DNA of 64,000 nucleotides from Odontesthes bonariensis. Taxonomy: Eukaryota; Chordata; Actinopteri; Atheriniformes; Atherinopsidae. The stretch spans positions 17,816,227 to 17,880,226 of the forward strand of contig NC_134515.1 of the NCBI RefSeq assembly GCF_027942865.1, written 5' to 3'. The position numbers were made by a program, and so were the translations under genes. Below, one piece after another: positions 6,810 to 63,603 of the stretch. Under the pieces are notes generated by a model. That model ran no database searches. It was not told the DNA's origin and saw only the letters and a list, made by a program, of their open reading frames with translations. Within the stretch, counting starts at the first letter, position 1. Each line of letters opens with the position of its first letter.

Positions 6810-9800
6810 TCACTCCTTCTTGTTTCCCCATTTGGCCATCTTGTTGTTGACGGGAGTCTTTATGAATCTGTTCGACTTCATGTAGGCAGCGATCTTCTCT
6901 AGGGCCTAAAACAATGAGCAAAAGTGATTTTAAATAAAAAGCTGCAAAATCGCACAACATGCATAAATACAACATTTTAGTTTTTTTCAGTTGAAACTGT
7001 AACTAAGCCCTGCCAGAGGTATATCAGTCAGACAAGCAAACAAATTAAAGTTGAATAATCAGGTTCTTCTGGCTCCAAGAGCCTTTAATGTGTCCATCAC
7101 TGCCATTTCTACGGTTGCCATGGTTACTAGCATCTACTTCAAGAAGGGGTTTTAGAGGCAGAGCTTAAGCACAACAGAAAGGGAGGGGCCTGCAAGTTCT
7201 GCTGTGGGCCCAACACAGAAGTGACCCCCACTGATACATTAATATTGTAATACATCAGTCCAGTGTTCTCACCTCAAAACGGTCCAAAAGATCTTTGAGG
7301 TTTTTAAAGTCATCCAGGCATGAAGGATGAAACATCCTGTGTTGATCCAACAGCTCGTACATAATGAAGTCAACAAACGTGACCTGTTGTGAAGAAAAGT
7401 TCAAGGTAACAGCTGCAAAAGTAAACTCAATAGCAGGCTCGTAGTCAATTATAGATTTGCGTCAGTCATCATTATTTGTATAGTAACTTTTTTGTCAGGA
7501 ACTGCATTTTTAAAAAAAAATAAAAAATTTAATGTCCAACTGTTGTATCTTAACCCAGCATGTATGCATGTGAGCTTTGTATAAGATATCAAAGGTCAGC
7601 CATATTCTCACAGTCTGCATGTGCTTATAAGAAACGGTTCATTCAGTTATCAACGGTGTCCTTTGCTCCTTTAGTGATCTGTCAACTATGGAAAACCGCC
7701 CAATCTGAAAAGAGCTTCTTTAATCTTTTTTTTTACTATAAAAGTGCTGTTTTTTTCATTTATTTTTTAATTTCCATTTAGAGGACATGGAAGTTTCGTA
7801 CAATAAAGTTATACATTTGAATTTTTTTTTTTTTTTTTAAATGAATGTAAAGTACAGCCTATGAAAAAAACCAACCAACCAAACAAACAAACAAAAAAAA
7901 CTTAGCTTGACAGACACACACACACAAAAAAGGTCATAAATGGGAGTATGACTCAGTTCTGACTCAGCAAACAGGCTACTCACATGATGAGTCATGTGAA
8001 CAATCAGTAGTTTCTGCTTCTAGAGAATCAACATGACTGGAATGATCAAAAATAGACATGAAAACCTCTGAAAACCCATTTTTCTCTCATACATGAACAA
8101 GGCAACTTATTCGGTTTTGATTTTCCTTAAAGTTTTGTTTCTGGTTAGCAATACTCTGTATTACAGCCATGCTCAACATAGCCCTGATCGGCAGCTGGAG
8201 GGGACACTGCGCAACTTAGTTAATTCAGTCCAAGCCAATTAATGGAAATGATACTGTTGCAAATTACAGTATAAAGCAGGATCATTTTCAATGTTTGCTT
8301 CAAATTCACTCACCGAATAGAAAGCATTTGTGTGTCCAAATTGAAAGAGTTACATGTCGTCTTTTTTTCTTGGTTTAGAGGAGATTTCTCACATTTACAA
8401 TATCAACAAACAAGTGTTCACCAGGAGTGATTAAGTTAAAGAATTATTCAACCTGCAGTTTTCTCTCAGATCTGTAAAGCTTCATACTCCATCCAGTAGG
8501 TATTAAAAAAAAAAAAAACTTTAACTAATGAAGTATCTGCAGAGCTCCAATCAGCACAGGCAGAAACAACTGGATCTAAAGCTTATTAAGCAGTTTAAAT
8601 GTAATACCAAAATTATTTCGCATCCTGTAGATGTGTAAAAAGGCTAATTTTATCAACGTTATAACAACATGACATGCTAAATGTTTATTTCTATCCTCTC
8701 CTGTTCTGGACCCAAAGTTGCCAATAACAAAAATTATGAATGCAGCCTTAATAACGACAGTCCCCCCCTGTGAAGTCTTTTATGGTCATAAGTTGATGTA
8801 CCTTTTCACCAGCAAACCACTTCCTGTTTCCCATGAAATCTGAGAACTGCTTCAGTACACCTGGCAGTGTCTTGAGGTATCCTGGCTTCATATTATCCTG
8901 ATTCCAGAGAGGAAAGATTGTTATTAGTGGAGATTTAAAGGTACGGAATTATGTCATATTTAAGATAATACTCACAAAGTCAGTGTAGCACAGCCTCACA
9001 AAGCCATTTCTCAAGTCCATGGCCTGGTTCTCCAGGATGTCCACTCGGACCTTTTCATCCTCAGTCTCTCCGCCTGTTATCGGATCAAAATTTCCAGAAC
9101 TGAGCAAATGAACCTGAAGCAATGAATTTGCACCTTTCTTGAATGTTGTGAATAAACGAAAAAGAGGACATGGAACTTTTCGACTTACACAAATTGTTCT
9201 TACGAGCAATGTATCTCATGATGGCATTGCTCTGCACTATCTTCCTGTCTCCATCCACCAGGTAGGGTAGCTATAATGAGGTGTTAATCACAGTAAATGA
9301 TCAAATAGTTTTAAAATGCCTTTCATTAAAATCATTATGATCGGGTTAAACTCTTACATTGGGGAAATCCATTCCAAGTTTATTTTTTTCATCAAACCAG
9401 CAGCTCTTGTCATAGTTTGGAGCTGTGTGAGAGACATGTGGGTCAGATCTTTAGTCAAATTAATGACATCTGTTTTATTTGGTAGCTGAAATGCTGAGTT
9501 ACCTTCGCCGCAGACATAAAACTTGTCCTCGTACTTGGTGCCGGTGTACTCCAGCAGGAGGCGGATGGGCTGGGCAAGCTGCACGAGTTCAGAGGTGGGA
9601 GAAAGGTTGGTTTGATGTCAACACACAGAGCTCTGAGGTTTATTAACGGCTGTCCATGGAGGACATGCACTTACATTTCAAATAGCTTTGAGATAATGCT
9701 AAAATGTGTAATTGAAATGTGAAACTTAACAGTTGATTTTGATTCTTGAGGACTTCAACAACTTTTTATATGAAAGCAATAGATTTTCAGTCATGTGCCT

Positions 9801-12514
9801 TTTAGTGACAAGCTTTAAGTCACAGACAAGACAGAAGGGTGGAAAGTGAACAAAAATGAGAGTGGATGGAAAAAAGAAAGACAACTGGCCAACTGGAAGT
9901 GCTTACTGACTGTGGATGAAAAAAAAAAAACCTTGTGGAAATTTCATTTATCAAATAGTAACTCTTAACAGACCCAGAAATCTGTCATCTCTCCAACATG
10001 GAACAGATGCATAAAAATGCATATATGACAATGTTTAAGTAAAAACAAACAAAACAAAAAAAACTGTTCAACCAAGTGCGCTCACAGACTTCGTAAACCT
10101 AGGCACAGCTCATCTCTCAGGGCTGAGAACCAAGCAGGAATTTGAAATGCAGATAATCCCTTGTGAAGACCAAATCCCTGGATCCTGACAAATAAAACTC
10201 ACTTCCTGCCACCAGAAGCAAGAGAGCAGCTTGACATCCGTGAATGCCAAGTACACATCCATCACAACTCTGTTAAAGGCTCCCAAAAATGCATTCCAGA
10301 GGAGGTACGATCCAATGTTGAACACTTTACTTTCCAGCAGCCAGTTCAAGTTTGTATTGAATTGTTCATAAATCTCCCTTTCTTCATTGTATGCGACAGC
10401 CCTCAGAAGTGAGGAGCATATCTGTACCTACAAATACATGCTTACGGATACACATATTTATCAACTTTAATCTCAGAATTGTGATCCCTGCAAGCATCCG
10501 TGAGCCAAACAAGAATTTGCAATCTTTGCTCATAATTTCAGCATGTGTACTAAAAGATCTGTAAAATGTGGGCATCGATACGTGAACATTTTTCCTTTAA
10601 AATAAGGTTTGTGGAGTTTTATCCCCGATATTCTCAAGTGGTAACAGAAGCCTTTGACTCCCTCTTTCAGACCCAAGCACAGTGAGTGTTGTTGCTGAAA
10701 TGTCCATTTCAGTTATGGATAGGAATAATATCTAATCAAATATCACTTGCATCTTGTGAATCAGATACCCAGGCAATACCCAGACCCAGTTGCGACTTGC
10801 TCAGTGATATCGGGGTAACTATCAGATACACGTAGAGTTAACATGAATACAAAAATTGTAATCGGGGAATTGACTGGCAGCATATTCGATGTCCTCTGCG
10901 CCCTGCCAAAATGCCACTCCTTTGCATTTCCAACAGTGAGAAATGCATCTCCATTAGATAACTACCTGCTGTAAAGTGCATGTAAGAACAGCATCTGTGG
11001 GGAAAGTCTGGTCTGAATTGTCCATGCATACTCCAGAAATCTGCAGCTGTTCATGCGTGACAAATGGCTTAAACAAACATATTTACATAACTCTTTTAAT
11101 ACAACTTGCGTTTGACACTCTCTTTAAGCCAAGTTGTTATGGTTTGATCGACTGCTGTTCCACTACGTGCACAGACTTTATTGTCAGAGTTGATGAACTG
11201 AAGAATTCCATTTAAAAAAAAAAAAAAAAAAAAAAAAAACCTGCAGGCAAACACATCAAGTCTAATCCTGGTTCTCAGATACTTTGATTTCCTTCTCACC
11301 ACCACAGAATTCATCATCAGTGTTCACAACATTGATCATAATGTATATGGTGTCGCTGTAATCACCGACGACCAAAACAGTCATTTTTGCACGAAAGGGG
11401 ATGGCCCAATAGCTATAACACCTCCAACAAACACATGCACACTATTCTCACATCATGGCCTCCAAAAAATGGGTTTGCTTGGGTTTCCATTTCTGAACGT
11501 GTTCAGACCCCAAAGCTTTTAGGTCTTGATAAGTTACTGTGGTAAATCAGGGATGGTCGCCTTCAAACAGCCTATGTGTAGATGATGCAGGAAGAACTCT
11601 GCTGACACAGACTTGGTCGAACCCAGAAACCTTTTATTGACAACCAGGCCCGTATCAGAATTACAGAATGATCCTTAAAGCCCAAATGTCTAATGCAATC
11701 ACTGTGGGTGCTGTTCCTTTTTAAGTGGGATAAAACTTTCCCCTATTTAGGCGCATGACCAGAAGATAATGTATAATGCGTTTTCCTCAAAATGTCCATA
11801 TTTGACTCTATGCATCTCTTGGTTGGGACACACACACTCTGTGATGTCTGTGATGCTCTTTTTCAAACATTATCTTTCAGTATCAGACACCACATTACCA
11901 ACATTTTTACGCCACACCCAAAGTTTAAAGACTTAGAGATTTAAACTTTCACAGAGCGATCTGGACAGTCTGTGGTTGTAAACACCAACCTGGGGCATAT
12001 GAACCGTTTGATCTGCTCATAAACTAAATACATTATCTGCCGCTTCATTTCTGATAAGCATTTTGGTTAATATATGACCAAACAAACGAACGCTATAAAA
12101 CTCAGGTTCTCAGCCAGAGATATCAGGTGCCCGTCTAACGACTTGATGTTGTAACCTGGACATATCAGATTACAGTTTCAATTTATTTAATTCGGATTCT
12201 GAAGCCGGTGCAAACGTCACAGATGGAGATCAGGCTGTGAGCATGCGCACAGGGGTCCCGGTTCCAGTTACATAAGTTGCGCGCTGCAAACAACAATCTG
12301 CTCAAAAACACATTGGCGTCGTGCAAGGAAAGTCAAATGTCAAAAGTGCACACAAAGGTGGGTAGTTCAACTTAACGGAGGTCTTGTACTTGTCCAGCGG
12401 CTGCCGTAAAACAGCAACACGGCTGCAACCATATGGAAGCTTCCTTTGTTCCTAAACAATTAAAGATGCGCAACTTACCCCGCGAATATCCCAATAAGCA
12501 AGTGTGACTGCCAT
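6810..12514 (-). CDS. gstm: Glutathione S-transferase mu, copy B (complete)
   Basis: Complete mu-class GST: conjugation of reduced glutathione to electrophilic substrates in the cytosol. Eight minus-strand exons: 12514-12479, 9578-9503, 9422-9358, 9270-9189, 9073-8976, 8897-8802, 7383-7273 and 6905-6810. They total 660 nt, 219 codons plus stop, the normal family length. All introns are GT-AG and phases agree. Landmarks: MAVTLAYWD with the catalytic Tyr7; WF at 46-47 and Lys50; [44 protein letters not shown] in exon 7; C-terminus AKWGNKKE. A minus-strand AATAAA at 6788-6783, 22 nt past the stop, can serve as polyadenylation signal. Convergent with the eps8l3 tail. Best guess is the functional, ancestral-like copy, since its exon 5 resembles other mu GSTs more than copy A's does. 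Confidence 0.96.
7949..7994. promoter_or_regulatory. Cluster of AP-1 / CNC-Maf type sites in gstm copy B intron 6
   Basis: Three TGAC/GTCA-type elements in 46 bp: TGACTCAG (7949), TGACTCAGCA (7960-7969, also fitting the antioxidant response element TGACnnnGC) and TGAGTCA (7988-7994). Nrf2-small Maf heterodimers are known to control mu GST genes through such sites. Function here is inferred from motif and location only. Confidence 0.4.
9579..12478 (-). other. gstm copy B intron 1 (2.9 kb)
   Basis: GT-AG intron. The first ~400 bp next to exon 2 is almost identical to copy A, then homology decays. A poly-A run lies at about 11215-11239 on the plus strand. No further exon or transposon was recognised between 10.3 and 12.4 kb. 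Confidence 0.55.
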
Positions 12515-13920: not shown

Positions 13921-16900
13921 CTACATGCTTTGAATAAGAGGGTGAGGTGGAGGTTATTTTGCTAGTTACCATCTGCAGTTTATCCCACTAAATGACCCTA
14001 CACCTTATACCCTGGACCTTTAAGAAGTGTGCTAGCTAACTAGGATACACTTTGGTAACATGTAAATTTAGTGTTAAAAAGAAACATCTGCTGCATAGTG
14101 CAATTAAAATCAAACATCTGTATAAACAAAACATAACAAGCAGTAGCAGAACTACCAAAACGAGAGCTATTTGGAGGCCCAAACATATTTCAAAATTACT
14201 AAAAGGAAAAAAAAACATTGTAAATGTCATAATTTGATTTTACTTTTCTTTTTCCACATGGAGAAACGTTTGTAGTAATATTCAAACTTTAAGAGTGAGT
14301 GGAAAAGCTCATTTCAGTTTACCAAACAACAGTTATTGACAAGTTTAGTAATCTCTGTGCACACGCCATTTTATGTGCTGTAACCTGTATGATTTTAGAG
14401 ATTACATTCAATATCTCCTCTTGGTAAACTCTTACTATATTAAGTTTAATCTCAAAAACAGCGGTTCAAACAGCAGCTGGAATATTTTACAGGGAACTTT
14501 GTAGAAAAATAATAAAAATCAAACGTTGTGTCATGTTAAAATACACTGTTGTGTTGTTTTGTCTCCTTATCCTTTTATTGTGCTACATGAATTCATATGC
14601 AGCTAAAATCACCAAATAGCAACAAAAGACGCCAGAATCAGGACCTCAGTGTTCTCCGTGCTAACTACAGCCCTGTGTGCAATTAAAACTCCTCTCATTG
14701 CAAATCAGCTCCAACGTTTCCTTCTACAGTCATTCTTAAAGTCCGTGTATGTTTGATCAATAGTTTCCTTCTGGATGTTAATAATATCCAAAGCTTGGTG
14801 CAGGAATTACAGATGTTGAACAAAAATGCTGACAAGATATAACCATCAACATGAACGTTTTTAAATGAACTGTTCAACAAACATCATGAAATCCGGAAAG
14901 ATATCAAAGGAGGACTCGAGGAAACTAAAGGTAGCAAACACCTGGGCACACAGAGTGTAGGTCATTTCAGTAGCAACGTTCATAATCATATCGTAATGAA
15001 GATTTTCTCTTTTCACAGGTGTGATATGTTTATATGCAAACATGTACAATGTCCTGACATGATGTTAAGGGATAGCTGTTAGAATCTAAAGCTATGGAGC
15101 AACTTGTATACAAAAGAGCTTTACTTTTAGTTTGGACTGGTGCAGGAGGAAATAATGGTAAATATTAACCAGGCTCTTTGCTTTATGTGCAAGTTCTAGG
15201 CTGCAAAACCTCACCATGACTCAGCTGAAAGTCCTGGGGAAAAAAAACAAGGTTGTATCGTGCAATAAAGTACTTGGGTAGTATTGGGTACTACTAATGA
15301 GATGTTTTTATGGACCAGACAGTAACATGTTGAGATGACAAGAGGATATTCAGATATCAGAGGCTGCAACCAATAATGTATGTGTACAATTACATTAAAT
15401 GTGGTGGTACACAAAGAAGGCTATATATTTATAAGGTTGACTATACTTTCTGTAAGAAATTGAACTTTCTGAAAAAGCTTCATTCTTAAATTTTCAAAAG
15501 ATGGAGCTTAATATTTGGTGTAGAATTCATGATAGATCCCTGCACACATTGACCCACATTAATGGGTCTGAATATGGTCGAAGTAAACAGTGCAGTCTTT
15601 GCACCTTTTACTCACTCACTCGCACACTCCCACAGAGTCCTTTCTGATTATAAAGTGCTGAGTCACAAGCAGCCCTCATTTTTCAGTGTAAATTACATTT
15701 CTACTTTTTCTTACTGCCTTGGTCTTTACCGCTTTCTAACTGGTATTTTCATGTAAAAGAAATAAGCAACTCAGCGTGACTAATATTTATTTTTTAACAG
15801 ACACAGCTGGCATTAAATATCATTTCACCAACAGTACATACATTTCTCTGGGAGGACACAAATTCAGTGCTTTTGAATAGCAAGAAGTGGCCCTAGTCAT
15901 GACACCAGGATACAAACTGAAGACAGGAGTTTGCAAAAGGCTTATCAAGTCAGTAGACTTTCCTAATATGTGGTTTGCTTGTGGATTTGGCACTGGTTGA
16001 ATAGTGCAAGGAGTGAATACTTAAGGAATAATTCATCATGCATCATTCATTGTACTATTACTCAGAAACATATGTAGTTAAGATATGTTTTTGTAAAGGA
16101 CAGATGGAGAAGAGTCAAAGTCCAGACTGCCAGTTGAAACAATATCGTGAAATACAAGTATGTACATCATGATACTGTGAATGTGCAGCGTCACTGAACG
16201 GAGGAAACAATTTTGACGGGTCATCATTCCACTCCACTGAATCACTGTAAAGACTGCAAACACAACACAAATATTACAGAAATACTGGAGATGGAGATTT
16301 CTCTGCCAGTCAGACAACATGAGGTGCCGTAGAAGGTGTCAAGCAGCCCACAACAAACAGTGTTTCTATTTAGACCATTAACCCTCTGAAAATGTTCTAT
16401 TTACTTCATATGTTCAGAGAAGTCAAAGGTGCAGCCAGCCATTTAGAGATGTGAGGTCAATGTTTCACTTTACCTACGTCTCCCTGCAACAATAAAACCT
16501 TGTAATATCATTTAGCTTAGTCATGCCATATCTTTTTATCAGTTATCTATGTTTTGATGTCAATGTTATGGAGGTGTGCTTTCAGAATAATTTATTTACA
16601 ATTCATACAATACATTTTCCATTCAAATAGATACAAAGCCTTAAAGATACACAGTCTTGTCCCGTCAAGTTTTAAGTATAACTTTTCAGCTCGACCTCAC
16701 TGTCTGAATATGATCACTTCCAGCTCCAAAAGACTAAGATGCCAACAGTCAAATACTGAACTCGAGGCTTGAAAATGGTAGTTCTTGAACCAACATGTTT
16801 TCATTATGGCTACTTTCATCATTTATATGCAGTCTATGGCTCCACAGTGGGCTTTTGGCACTTGTTGTGGCCAGCAGAGTTTCTTCTACATGCTTTGAAT

Positions 16901-19900
16901 AAGAGGGTGAGGTGGAGGTTATTTTGCTAGTTACCATCTGCAGTTTATCCCACTAAATGACCCTACACCTTGTACCCTGGACCTTTAAGAAGTGTGCTAG
17001 CTAACTAGGATACACTTTGGTAACATGTAAATTTAGTGTTAAAAAGAAACATCTGCTGCATAGTGCAATTAAAATCAAACATCTGTATAAACAAAACATA
17101 ACAAGCAGTAGCAGAACTACCAAAACGAGAGCTATTTGGAGGCCCAAACATGTTTTAAAGTTACTAAAAGAAAAAAAAAAACATTGTAAATGTCATGATT
17201 TGATTTTACTTTTCTATTTCCACATGGAGAAACGTTTGTAGTAATATTCAGACTTTAAGAGTGAGTGGAAAAGCTCATTTCAGTTTACCAAACAACAGTT
17301 ATTGACAAGTTTAGTAATCTCTGTGCACACGCCATTTTATGTGCTGTAACCTGTATGATTTTAGAGATTACATTCAATATCTCCTCTTGGTAAACTCTTA
17401 CTATATTAAGTTTAATCTCAAAAACAGCGGTTCAAACAGCAGCTGGAATATTTTACAGGGAACTTTGTAGAAAAATAATAAAAATCAAACGTTGTGTCAT
17501 GTTAAAATATACTGTTGTGTTGTTTTGTCTCCTTATCCTTTTATTGTGCTACATGAATTCATATGCAGCTAAAATCACCAAATAGCAACAAAAGACGCCA
17601 GAATCAGGACCTCAGTGTTCTCCGTGCTAACTACAGCCCTGTGTGCAGTTAAAACTCCTCTCATTGCAAATCAGCTCCAACGTTTCCTTCTACAGTCATT
17701 CTTAAAGTCCGTGTATGTTTGATCAATAGTTTCCTTCTGGATGTTAATAATATCCAAAGCTTGGTGCAGGAATTACAGATGTTGAACAAAAATGCTGACA
17801 AGATATAACCATCAACATGAACGTTTTTAAATGAACTGTTCAACAAACATCATGAAATCTGGAAAGATATTAAAGGAGGACTCGAGGAAACTAAAGGTAG
17901 CAAACACCTGGGCACACAGAGTGTAGGTCATTTCAGTAGCAACGTTCATAATCATATCGTAATGAAGATTTTCTCTTTTCACAGGTGTGATATGTTTATA
18001 TGCAAACATGTACAATGTCCTGACATGATGTTAAGGGATAGCTGTTAGAATCTAAAGCTATGGAGCAACTTGTATACAAAAGAGCTTTACTTTTAGTTTG
18101 GACTGGTGCAGGAGGAAATAATGGTAAATATTAACCAGGCTCTTTGCTTTATGTGCAAGTTCTAGGCTGCAAAACCTCACCATGACTCAGCTGAAAGTCC
18201 TGGAAAAAAAAACAAGGTTGTATCGTGCAATAAAGTACTTGGGTAGTATTGGGTACTACTAATGAGATGTTTTTATGGACCAGACAGTAACATGTTGAGA
18301 TGACAAGAGGATATTCAGATATCAGAGGCTGCAACCAATAATGTATGTGTACAATTACATTAAATGTGGTGGTACACAAAGAAGGCTATATATTTATAAG
18401 GTTGACTATACTTTCTGTAAGAAATTGAACTTTCTGAAAAAGCTTCATTCTTAAATTTTCAAAAGATGGAGCTTAATATTTGGTGTAGAATTCATGATAG
18501 ATCCCTGCACACATTGACCCACATTAATGGGTCTGAATATGGTCGAAGTAAACAGTGCAGTCTTTGCACCTTTTACTCACTCACTCGCACACTCCCACAG
18601 AGTCCTTTCTGATTATAAAGTGCTGAGTCACAAGCAGCCCTCATTTTTCAGTGTAAATTACATTTCTACTTTTTCTTACTGCCTTGGTCTTTACCGCTTT
18701 CTAACTGGTATTTTCATGTAAAAGAAATAAGCAACTCAGCGTGACTAATATTTATTTTTTAACAGACACAGCTGGCATTAAATATCATTTCACCAACAGT
18801 ACATACATTTCTCTGGGAGGACACAAATTCAGTGCTTTTGAATAGCAAGAAGTGGCCCTAGTCATGACACCAGGATACAAACTGAAGACAGGAGTTTGCA
18901 AAAGGCTTATCAAGTCAGTAGACTTTCCTAATATGTGGTTTGCTTGTGGATTTGGCACTGGTTGAATAGTGCAAGGAGTGAATACTTAAGGAATAATTCA
19001 TCATGCATCATTCATTGTACTATTACTCAGAAACATATGTAGTTAAGATATGTTTTTGTAAAGGACAGATGGAGAAGAGTCAAAGTCCAGACTGCCAGTT
19101 GAAACAATATCGTGAAATACAAGTATGTACATCATGATACTGTGAATGTGCAGCGTCACTGAACGGAGGAAACAATTTTGACGGGTCATCATTCCACTCC
19201 ACTGAATCACTGTAAAGACTGCAAACACAACACAAATATTACAGAAATACTGGAGATGGAGATTTCTCTGCCAGTCAGACAACATGAGGTGCCGTAGAAG
19301 GTGTCAAGCAGCCCACAACAAACAGTGTTTCTATTTAGACCATTAACCCTCTGAAAATGTTCTATTTACTTCATATGTTCAGAGAAGTCAAAGGTGCAGC
19401 CAGCCATTTAGAGATATGAGGTCAATGTTTCACTTTACCTACGTCTCCCTGCAACAATAAAACCTTGTAATATCATTTAGCTTAGTCATGCCATATCTTT
19501 TTATCAGTTATCTATGTTTTGATGTCAATGTTATGGAGGTGTGCTTTCAGAATAATTTATTTACAATTCATACAATACATTTTCCATTCAAATAGATACG
19601 AAGCCTTAAAGATACACAGTCTTGTCCCGTCAAGTTTTAAGTATAATTTTTCAGCTCGACCTCACTGTCTGAATATGATCACTTCCAGCTCCAAAAAGAC
19701 TAAGATGCCAACAGTCAAATACTGAACTCGAGGCTTGAAAATGGTAGTTCTTGAACCAACATGTTTTCATTATGGCTACTTTCATCATTTATATGCAGTC
19801 TATGGCTCCACAGTGGGCTTTTGGCACTTGTTGTGGCCAGCAGAGTTTCTTCTACATGCTTTGAATAAGAGGGTGAGGTGGAGGTTATTTTGCTAGTTAC

Positions 19901-20985
19901 CATCTGCAGTTTATCCCACTAAATGACCCTACACCTTGTACCCTGGACCTTTAAGAAGTGTGCTAGCTAACTAGGATACACTTTGGTAACATGTAAATTT
20001 AGTGTTAAAAAGAAACATCTGCTGCATAGTGCAATTAAAATCAAACATCTGTATAAACAAAACATAACAAGCAGTAGCAGAACTACCAAAACGAGAGCTA
20101 TTTGGAGGCCCAAACATGTTTTAAAGTTACTAAAAGAAAAAAAAAAACATTGTAAATGTCATGATTTGATTTTACTTTTCTATTTCCACATGGAGAAACG
20201 TTTGTAGTAATATTCAAACTTTAAGAGTGAGTGGAAAAGCTCATTTCAGTTTACCAAACAACAGTTATTGACAGGTTTAGTAATCTCTGTGCACACGCCA
20301 TTTTATGTGCTGTAACCTGTATGATTTTAGAGATTACATTCAATATCTCCTCTTGGTAAACTCTTACTATATTAAGTTTAATCTCAAAAACAGCGGTTCA
20401 AACAGCAGCTGGAATATTTTACAGGGAACTTTGTAGAAAAATAATAAAAATCAAACGTTGTGTCATGTTAAAATATACTGTTGTGTTGTTTTGTCTCCTC
20501 ATCCTTTTATTGTGCTACATGAATTCATATGCAGCTAAAATCACCAAATAGCAACAAAAGACGCCAGAATCAGGACCTCAGTGTTCTCCGTGCTAACTAC
20601 AGCCCTGTGTGCAGTTAAAACTCCTCTCATTGCAAATCAGCTCCAACTTTTCCTTCTACAGTCATTCTTAGAGTCCGTGTATGTTTGATCAATAGTTTCC
20701 TTCTGGATGTTAATAATATCCAAAGCTTGGTGCAGGAATTACAGATGTTGAACAAAAATGCTGACAAGATATAACCATCAACATGAACGTTTTAAAATGA
20801 ACTGTTCAACAAACATCATGAAATCTGGAAAGATATCAAAGGAGGACTCGAGGAAACTAAAGGTAGCACACACAGAGTGTAGGTCATTTCAGTAGCAACG
20901 TTCATAATCATATCGTAATGAAGATTTTCTCTTTTCACAGGTGTGATATGTTCATATGCAAATATGTACAAATGTGTCCTGGTGT
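13921..20985. repeat. Tandem array of ~2966-bp units (2 full + 1 partial)
   Basis: Unit 1 is 13921-16885, unit 2 is 16886-19851 and partial unit 3 is 19852 to about 20985. CTACATGCTTTG marks each unit start, and sequence is offset by 2965-2966 bp with only scattered substitutions and small indels. Unit 3 ends about 40 bp before the ampd2 stop codon on the opposite strand, so the unit includes the ampd2 3' flank and probably its 3' UTR. Short ORFs recur in each unit only because the DNA is duplicated; frames shift between old and new copies, so no protein is supported. Each full unit has TGACTCAGC (15217 and 18183) and TGCTGAGTCA (15656 and 18621). Confidence 0.92.
20506..20511 (-). terminator. 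Candidate ampd2 polyadenylation signal
   Basis: AATAAA on the minus strand about 520 nt downstream of the ampd2 stop codon, within unit 3 of the tandem array. Duplicate signals occur in units 2 and 1 (about 17541 and 14575). Which is used cannot be told from sequence. Confidence 0.35.
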
Positions 20986-21026: not shown

Positions 21027-42200
<21,174 letters not shown>

Positions 42201-51774: not shown

Positions 51775-55733
<3,959 letters not shown>

Positions 55734-61075: not shown

Positions 61076-61080
61076 CTTAT

Positions 61081-61502
61081 TGTCACGCCCAGAGACTCAT
61101 GTTTTTAGTTTTCATGTTTAGGTTATGTTTCTTTTCAGTCCATGTTTAGTTTTCCCTTCACTTCCCTCACTCAGGCCATTAGTTCATTCCCCTCACCTGT
61201 TCATTCCGCACTCAGCTGCACTCACTCCCCAATCACCCTCACTCCCTATTTAGTTTCCTGCCTCCCCTTTCAGTTTTGTCGGATCTTTGTTACTGTTATG
61301 TGATGCCACGTTTCCACGCCACATTTTCATCCAAGCTAAGTATTTATTCCATGCCATGTCCTTGTTCTTTTGTTTTGGTTATAGCTTCGTTTTTCTCCGG
61401 CTCTGCCGCGTTTTATGTTGATACTTTGTTTTTTGTTAATAAATCACCCCTTTTCTTTGAAAGTCCGCATCCGTGTCCTCCCCTTCTACACCACACCTGA
61501 CA
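61081..61502 (+). repeat. 5' LTR
   Basis: Left LTR. TATTTAG at 61247-61253 is a TATA-like box 31 bp upstream of GTCGGATCTTT (61278), the inferred RNA start. TTAATAAATCACC near 61437 can supply the AATAAA polyadenylation signal, giving a U3-R-U5 order. Confidence 0.9.
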
Positions 61503-61503
61503 G

Positions 61504-61514
61504 AAAGATCCGAC
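61504..61514 (+). promoter_or_regulatory. Self-priming primer binding site
   Basis: AAAGATCCGAC directly after the left LTR is the exact reverse complement of GTCGGATCTTT at 61278-61288, which lies where the RNA should begin. Tf1 and sushi elements prime reverse transcription by folding the first 11 nt of their own RNA onto such a site. The 11-nt length and position fit that mechanism. Confidence 0.75.
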
Positions 61515-61519
61515 CAGAA

Positions 61520-63217
61520 ATGGACGCGGCGGACTACACTGCCTTCTGGGAGCTGGCTGGGGACTTCTGTTGCCTCTCATCGAGCTGCACCTCCTGGGAG
61601 AAACTGAACTCTGCCAATGAACTAATTGACTTTTTTGTACGAAAGCAGGTTCTCAGGCACATGTCAGGAGTGACGCACATCTGGGCAGAGGTGAGGGGTG
61701 TACAGCGCGCTGCTATGCTGGATATCTTTGGCATGGAGCCACAGAAGGTAGCCGCGCTGTACACACCCTCCCTCACCACTCCAGCATCCCAGGCCCCAGC
61801 CCCAGCCGTTCCCGAGCTGGCCCCAGCCGTTCCCGAGCTGGCCCCAGCCGTTCCCGAGCTGGCCCCAGCCGTTCCCGAGCTGGCCCCAGCCGTTCCCGAG
61901 CTGGCCCCAGCCGTTCCCGAGCTGGCCCCAGCCGTTCCCGAGCTGGCCCCAGCCGTTCCCGAGCTGGCCCCAGCTATAGAGGCCTCCGGGCCTGACTCCG
62001 AACTCGACCAAGAGGCCGCAGGGCCTGACCAAGAGGCCGCAGGGCCTGACCAAGAGGCCGCAGGGCCTGACCAAGAGGCCGCAGGGCCTGACCAAGAGGC
62101 CTTAGGGCCTGACCAAGGGGCTTTAGGGCCTGACCATGACCACGAGGCCACAGGGCCTGACCACGAGGCTTTAGAGCCTGACCACGAGGCTTTAGAGCCT
62201 GACCACGAGGCTGTAGAGCCTGACCACGAGGCTTTAGAGCCTGACCAAGACCAAGAGGCCACAGGGCCTGACCACGAGGCTTTAGAGCCTGACCACGAGG
62301 CTTTAGAGCCTGACCACGACCACGAGGCCACAGGGCCTGACCACGAGGCCGCAGGGCCTGACCACGAGGCCGCAGGGCCTGACCACGAGGCCGCAGGGCC
62401 TGACCAAGAGACCTCCGGGCCTGACCATAAGGCGGCAGAGCCCGACATGGACTCACTAGTTCGAGCCCCTCCCTCCCACCCCCAGACTTTGGGGATGTCT
62501 GGGATCCATCCCTTAAAGGGGGGGCTCCCCCCCCGTCGGAGGTCCGTCCGACCGGGGGACGGTCTCCACCTCCTGCTGCCACGCCACGGGATGTCTGGCC
62601 GCCCGCCAGACCACCGCCTCCTGCTGCCACGCCACGGGATGTCTGGCCGCCCGCCAGACCACCGCTTCCTGCTGCCACGCCACGGGATGTCTGGCCGCCC
62701 GCCAGACCACCGCTTCCTGCTGCCACGCCACGGGATGTCTGGCCGCCCGCCAGACCACCGCTTCCTGCTGCCACGCCACGGGATGTCTGGCCGCCCGCCG
62801 GACCACCGCTTCCTGCTGCCACGTCATCGGGGGTCCGGGCGTCCGCCGGATCACCGCCTGCTGCCACGCCGACGGAAGTCTGGGCGTCCGCCAGACCACC
62901 GCCGTCTCCTGCCGCCACGCCGACGGAAGTCTGGGCGTCCGCCAGACCACCGCCGTCTCCTGCCGCCACGCCGACGGAAGTCTGGGCGTCCGCCAGACCA
63001 CCGCCGTCTCCTGCCGCCACGCCGACGGAAGTCTGGGCGTCCGCCAGACCACTGCCTCCTGCTGCCCGAAGCCGGTACCACGCCCGTCTCTGGTTCCCCG
63101 ACCGGCTTCGAGCCCCTCCCTCCCACCCTTGGACTTTTTTGGGGTGTCTGGGATCCACCCCTTGAGGGGGGGGCTCTGTCACGCCCAGAGACTCATGTTT
63201 TTAGTTTTCATGTTTAG
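61520..63217 (+). CDS. LTR-element ORF built of minisatellite repeats (gag-like candidate)
   Basis: 565-codon ORF starting MDAADYTAFWELAGDF just after the primer site and running 41 nt into the right LTR. Residues 1-85 are non-repetitive (includes RKQVLRHMSGVTHIWAEV) and could be a gag/capsid-like N-terminus; no family was recognised. Then come eight APAVPEL heptads (21-bp units, about 61795-61970), about twenty acidic GPDxEA(A/L) heptads (61985-62450), and ten 48- or 51-bp units with SGRPPDH in an Arg/Pro/His-rich context (62570-63055). No zinc knuckle is seen. Because all repeat units are multiples of three, other frames and the opposite strand are also open, so the true frame in the second half is uncertain. 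Confidence 0.6.
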   Translation: MDAADYTAFWELAGDFCCLSSSCTSWEKLNSANELIDFFVRKQVLRHMSGVTHIWAEVRGVQRAAMLDIFGMEPQKVAALYTPSLTTPASQAPAPAVPELAPAVPELAPAVPELAPAVPELAPAVPELAPAVPELAPAVPELAPAVPELAPAIEASGPDSELDQEAAGPDQEAAGPDQEAAGPDQEAAGPDQEALGPDQGALGPDHDHEATGPDHEALEPDHEALEPDHEAVEPDHEALEPDQDQEATGPDHEALEPDHEALEPDHDHEATGPDHEAAGPDHEAAGPDHEAAGPDQETSGPDHKAAEPDMDSLVRAPPSHPQTLGMSGIHPLKGGLPPRRRSVRPGDGLHLLLPRHGMSGRPPDHRLLLPRHGMSGRPPDHRFLLPRHGMSGRPPDHRFLLPRHGMSGRPPDHRFLLPRHGMSGRPPDHRFLLPRHRGSGRPPDHRLLPRRRKSGRPPDHRRLLPPRRRKSGRPPDHRRLLPPRRRKSGRPPDHRRLLPPRRRKSGRPPDHCLLLPEAGTTPVSGSPTGFEPLPPTLGLFWGVWDPPLEGGALSRPETHVFSFHV

Positions 63218-63598
63218 GTTATGTTTCTTTTCAGTCCATGTTTAGTTTTCCCTTCACTTCCCTCACTCAGGCCATTAGTTCATTCCCCTCACCTGTTCAT
63301 TCCGCACTCAGCTGCACTCACTCCCCAATCACCCTCACTCCCTATTTAGTTTCCTGCCTCCCCTTTCAGTTTTGTCGGATCTTTGTTACTGTTATGTGAT
63401 GCCACGTTTCCACGCCACATTTTCATCCAAGCTAAGTATTTATTCCATGCCATGTCCTTGTTCTTTTGTTTTGGTTATAGCTTCGTTTTTCTCCGGCTCT
63501 GCCGCGTTTTATGTTGATACTTTGTTTTTTGTTAATAAATCACCCCTTTTCTTTGAAAGTCCGCATCCGTGTCCTCCCCTTCTACACCACACCTGACA
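63177..63598 (+). repeat. 3' LTR
   Basis: Second copy of the 422-bp LTR, offset 2096 bp from the first, followed by the CTTAT target duplication. Confidence 0.9.
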
Positions 63599-63603
63599 CT
63601 TAT

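Follow-up and report, generated by a model that had tools for sequence, protein, structure and literature searches.

The 64,000-nucleotide stretch of Odontesthes bonariensis DNA analysed here (the window) contains, at 61081-63598, a young, short LTR retrotransposon that is probably self-primed, its own RNA folding back to serve as the primer. Our preferred reading, which we hold with a confidence of about 87%, is that this is a non-autonomous and recently inserted element of the Ty3/gypsy type that uses its own RNA to prime reverse transcription, in the manner of the Tf1/sushi elements, with the enzymes supplied in trans. The mechanism is not new, as self-priming in vertebrate Tf1/sushi elements has already been published, reportedly with Butler et al. 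2001 as the source cited for it, and the non-autonomous setting is a modest extension of what is known. Among the matches listed from literature outside most subscription journals and Repbase, there is no report of a self-priming non-autonomous LTR element in a vertebrate. If the reading is true, the element represents a small, enzyme-free template, such that the sequence needs of self-priming could be read from many copies, and elements of this kind should reveal their partners through a common LTR and primer site.

A complete and recent insertion

The element is intact and 2,518 bp long, and has the hallmarks of an LTR retrotransposon: paired LTRs with TG..CA ends, a target-site duplication, and a purine run ahead of the right LTR. 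Its principal features are as follows.

61076..61080, + strand: left copy of the target-site duplication CTTAT, from the sequence
61081..61502, + strand: 5′ LTR, TGTCACG...CCTGACA, identified by its identity to the 3′ LTR, with ends that fit the Sushi motifs
61081..61277, + strand: putative U3, its extent if the RNA starts at 61278
61247..61253, + strand: TATA-like TATTTAG, 31 bp upstream of the putative primer
61438..61443, + strand: AATAAA, 59 nt upstream of the LTR end
61799..61974 and 62006..62446, + strand: tandem arrays of a 21-nt unit, from repeat analysis
62571..63066, + strand: tandem array of a 48-nt unit, from repeat analysis
63164..63173, + strand: purine run GAGGGGGGGG, the presumed polypurine tract, with CTC between it and the 3′ LTR
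63177..63598, + strand: 3′ LTR, identical to the 5′ LTR
63599..63603, + strand: right copy of the target-site duplication CTTAT, from the sequence

The left (61081-61502) and right (63177-63598) LTRs are each 422 nt long with no differences between them, and because LTR identity indicates recent insertion, the identical LTRs together with the target-site duplication show that the insertion is both complete and recent. No other LTR pair was picked out by eye among the direct repeats of at least 60 nt lying 150-20,000 nt apart in the window. The internal region is 1,674 nt long with a G+C content of 68%, and the 21-nt and 48-nt tandem arrays account for a large part of it. We also observe that the approximately 70 nt preceding the right LTR (63107-63176), including the purine run, recur at 62460-62527 with 85.7% similarity in a different frame, and this inner copy may represent a former element end or another site of plus-strand initiation. 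The G run of the purine tract is preceded by CCCC (63158-63173), and its inner copy by CCC; judged by eye, the tract and the preceding C run could form a small RNA hairpin.

The LTR termini provide the best indication of family. We compared them with nine of the 11 clade motifs in Table 3 of PMC3601003; the two left out, Sire and Retrofit, both need TGTT where the LTR has TGTC. The ends satisfy both of the Sushi motifs given there (TGTYANR ... CNTNACA), the only other full match among the nine being Class III, whose motif is merely TGT/ACA, while the rGmr1 and Gamma motifs fit one LTR end each. Sushi-type ends at a 422-nt spacing occur at two + strand positions in the window, which is the number of LTRs. 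The accessible part of the same source describes Sushi LTRs as having AATAAA nearer the 3′ end and a more T-rich U3; the putative U3 here is 39% T.

An unlikely variant of the preferred reading is that the element is self-primed but moved by some self-priming lineage outside Tf1/sushi. Self-priming has also been predicted for the TAR lineage of plant Copia elements, according to an excerpt of PMC6317226, and the element lacks a recognised reverse transcriptase by which it could be classified; however, both LTR-end motifs fit Sushi, and the available portions of PMC10085805, PMC4600332 and PMC6317226 name vertebrate self-priming only for Tf1/sushi.

Complementarity between the presumed RNA 5′ end and the LTR boundary

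The case for self-priming of the Tf1/sushi type rests primarily on two short sites.

61278..61288, + strand: putative self-primer GTCGGATCTTT, an exact match, at the presumed RNA 5′ end
61504..61514, + strand: candidate primer-binding site (PBS), the exact reverse complement of 61278-61288

The original prediction placed these sites at just these positions, with the second lying one base past the LTR, and its coordinates prove to be exact. The single base between the left LTR and the PBS is G61503, and the pairing ends at exactly 11 nt, T61277/C61515 and G61289/G61503 being non-pairing. The primer of Tf1 has the same length, 11 nt. A second copy of GTCGGATCTTT is present in the right LTR at 63374-63384. 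To gauge chance occurrence, we measured the longest reverse-complement match that the LTR makes with the 20 nt that follow it; with the LTR shuffled by dinucleotides, this match reached 11 nt in 9 of 20,000 shuffles. In the unshuffled 64 kb, 28 of 9,079 sliding windows gave a match of at least 11 nt; this control is looser, covering the entire stretch with its repeats and the element's own windows. The 11-nt complementarity is thus exact and beyond chance. Near-matches (GTCAGATCTTT) at 2011 and 9442 were considered as further parts of the system and set aside, as each sits in one of two duplicated segments that are 85% alike.

It had also been proposed that a tRNA-type TGG site is lacking, and this is borne out: the LTR edge carries no TGG, the first one occurring at 61521, 18 bases inside the element and overlapping an ATG. 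These observations weigh on the alternative that reverse transcription is primed by a tRNA, either whole or as a fragment, and that the 11-nt match arose by chance. Most LTR elements are primed by tRNAs, the accessible text of PMC10886601 describes vertebrate non-autonomous Helenus elements that use tRNA 3′ ends, and a TGG is present at 61521; but this TGG, 18 nt inside the element, belongs to the ATG context, and the rarity of a chance match (only 9 in 20,000 shuffles) makes the alternative quite improbable.

The argument that TATTTAG, 31 bp before 61278, positions the start there survives only in part. The spacing is exact, but there is a rival TATA-like box, TATTTAT, at 61341, 94 bp downstream of the first. 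The start matching TATTTAG is 61278, whereas that matching TATTTAT is 61372, downstream of the primer, and because the two boxes are similar the position of TATTTAG does not fix the start site. A sigma-70 promoter scan gave no match, although this is a bacterial promoter model with no bearing on a eukaryote.

The pathway we envisage is as follows. Transcription would start at or near 61278, and the first 11 nt of the RNA would pair back onto the PBS (61504-61514), the complementarity being evident and the structure predicted. If events then proceed as in Tf1, the reverse transcriptase/RNase H of the partner would cut in trans after nucleotide 11, and the new 3′ end would be extended by reverse transcriptase through G61503 into U5 and R, with synthesis thereafter as in other LTR elements. 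The primer, if it is copied into the new PBS, would renew the match in each cycle. The tRNA primer of retroviruses is copied in this way. If such copying occurs in each cycle, paired changes among copies would mark the mechanism and not only selection.

Predicted folding of the leader

Self-priming has been shown for Tf1 and, in the accessible portions of PMC10085805, PMC4600332 and PMC6317226, is described as shared by, or implicated in, the Tf1/sushi group, including its vertebrate members. The available part of PMC10085805 further describes a 'pretzel' in the RNAs of Tf1 and several Tf1/sushi elements, in which the primer:PBS helix is joined by two more duplexes, with PBS-adjacent sequence pairing with LTR sequence. 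We computed the probability of the middle pairs of the 11-nt primer:PBS helix (D1) for RNAs that all start at 61278 and have one of eight 3′ ends. The values are 0.98-1.0 for RNAs ending at 61514, 61520, 61530, 61545 and 61600, fall to 0.64-0.68 for 3′ ends at 61560 and 61650, and drop to 0.01 with a 3′ end at 61700; local folding is therefore predicted to favour primer:PBS pairing for most, but not all, of the RNA lengths tried. The leader from 61278 to 61560 (283 nt) is no more stable than its shuffled counterparts (z +1.26; 181 of the 200 shuffles equalled or exceeded its stability). The primer:PBS pairing is present in the centroid of this leader but absent from the best single structure, and imposing it costs 1.5 kcal/mol (-51.6 versus -53.1).

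The predicted folds contain the arms of two further duplexes.

61293..61298, + strand: 5′ arm of D2, the second duplex, pairing with 61498-61503 in the centroid fold
61498..61503, + strand: 3′ arm of D2 in the predicted fold, consisting of the LTR end plus G, directly 5′ of the PBS
61462..61478, + strand: U5 arm of D3, a possible third duplex, pairing with 61522-61535 over 14 bp with a 3-nt bulge
61522..61535, + strand: leader arm of D3, sharing with the ATG (61520-61522) its last base

D2 abuts D1 directly, and the best fold of RNA 61278-61545 contains both (-47.7 kcal/mol). D3 would pair U5 with the sequence just past the PBS and is predicted to cross D1 as a pseudoknot; the summed energies of D1, D2 and D3 come to about -61.3 kcal/mol before any penalty for the pseudoknot. 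D2 and D3 may therefore shape the leader into the 'pretzel' of the Tf1/sushi elements. Neither duplex is remarkable when taken singly, each being reached in about 5% of shuffles (250 of 5,000 for D2 and 223 of 5,000 for D3), and the two occur jointly in 7 of 5,000 interior shuffles. D3 within U5 alone was obtained in 4 of 3,000 shuffles; D3 was reached in 54 of 2,000 when the leader was shuffled instead, and by 9 of 400 other segments of the window. Tests of the flank energies were ordinary for up12 (152/1,000), up20 (340/1,000) and down40 (222/1,000), and low for down20 (28/1,000) and down26 (41/1,000). A 'pretzel'-like three-duplex leader is thus possible, but because the windows for the D2 and D3 tests were picked only once the fold had been seen, the duplex statistics are supporting rather than decisive. 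Rfam gave no match at gathering score across the whole window.

The suggestion that the 11-nt sites form an RNA hairpin for packaging, dimerisation or translation rather than for priming is the least credible of the alternatives, as the predicted pairing and the overlap of D3 with the start codon would suit it, but the site lies directly after the LTR, where a PBS must be, and there is no TGG-type site at the LTR edge to take its place. A more elaborate idea, which we regard as speculative and rather doubtful, retains priming and adds regulation: with the RNA 5′ end bound to the PBS, U5 would pair through D3 with the first codons, and the resulting pseudoknot would silence translation and set up priming at once, committing the RNA as a template for the partner's enzymes. 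Self-priming nonetheless provides the best reading of the exact match in its expected place, the absence of a TGG at the edge, the Sushi-type ends and the possible three-duplex fold, although the original interpretation is supported only in part.

Coding capacity, relatives and neighbouring features

The internal region has one long reading frame that opens just beyond the PBS.

61520..63217, + strand: open frame from the ATG at 61520 into the 3′ LTR, which may not be a gene

This frame has no stops in the 552 codons up to the LTR, compared with 16 and 25 in the other two + frames, but other frames on both strands are also open over long stretches. A codon test on the 20 21-nt units of 62006-62446 (10 of them distinct), in which pairwise changes were counted, gave 36 synonymous versus 79 non-synonymous changes in the ATG frame (0.31, versus 0.22 for random changes); the largest synonymous excess (45 versus 23) is in a frame closed by a TGA within the units themselves, and the test is uninformative. 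The first 93 residues have no match in the PDB, and their AlphaFold2 model, made without an alignment, is similarly uninformative (pLDDT 49).

A Pfam scan of the open frames revealed no gag or pol domains, including no pol domain representing the reverse transcriptase or integrase of the Tf1/sushi clade, and no chromodomain. A frame antisense to the 48-nt array matched Bflower above the cut-off (7e-7) and XRN1_DBM and ELAPOR1_C below it, and another frame matched PG_binding_3 below the cut-off (0.011); we take these to be products of repetitive composition. As no enzyme is recognised, the element, if mobile, must be moved in trans, and the non-autonomy originally proposed fits the open frames scanned. 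The element may function like a member of Tf1/sushi without being an autonomous one.

Relatives of the first 93 residues were found in none of eight candidate stretches from viral contigs and in one of 52 from bacteria and archaea; this one (L001), in a Kiritimatiellaceae MAG, is 46% identical over 35 aa with DNA matches of only 18 to 25 nt, and was judged to be chance. Short exact LTR and PBS patterns were likewise found in none of the viral and none of the bacterial or archaeal contigs. Because the collections searched are viral, bacterial and archaeal, these blanks say nothing about copy number.

Among known systems the closest is the Tf1/sushi group of Ty3/gypsy chromoviruses, typified by Tf1 of S. 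pombe and sushi-ichi of Fugu and including the vertebrate members reported by Butler et al. 2001. As described in the accessible sources, it shares with the element a PBS right after the LTR whose complement lies at the presumed start of the RNA, a possible three-duplex leader, Sushi-type LTR ends and AATAAA near the LTR end; the element differs in having no recognised gag, protease, reverse transcriptase, integrase or chromodomain and in its short internal region composed largely of tandem repeats. Tj1 of S. japonicus has a PBS with complementarity to its mRNA 5′ end, which is proposed as a self-primer in the available portion of PMC4600332, but is an autonomous yeast element with gag and pol. 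Two LTRs and an internal region without recognised enzymes, and hence presumed movement in trans, are features shared with TRIMs, such as that of bivalves (PMC6934838, in part), and with Helenus (PMC10886601, in part). TRIMs are less than 1 kb, however, whereas this element is 2.5 kb, and the excerpt on the bivalve TRIM leaves its priming mechanism unsettled where here there is a self-primer site. Helenus elements, in the accessible text, use tRNA 3′ ends in vertebrates and have a 4-bp target-site duplication in animals, in contrast to the self-primer site, the LTR edge without TGG and the 5-bp duplication found here. Helenus is also characterised by tRNA-like sequence within the LTR, whereas ARAGORN detected no tRNA gene anywhere in the window. 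The element probably works like Tf1/sushi, though its own proteins cannot place it in the clade.

Several other features of the window were observed. Positions 13921-20981 hold a head-to-tail duplication of a 2,965-bp unit with 99% identity. Segments 1280-2970 and 8725-10321, which are 7.4 kb apart and 85% alike, are perhaps tandem GST genes; in one of them a frame weakly matches GST C-terminal, below the cut-off. A 616-codon open frame at 35729-37579 contains a reverse transcriptase domain (RVT_1, 2.3e-35) and is LINE-like, and a frame at 54561-55151 that matches G-protein alpha (2.6e-21, residues 70-117) may be a host-gene exon.
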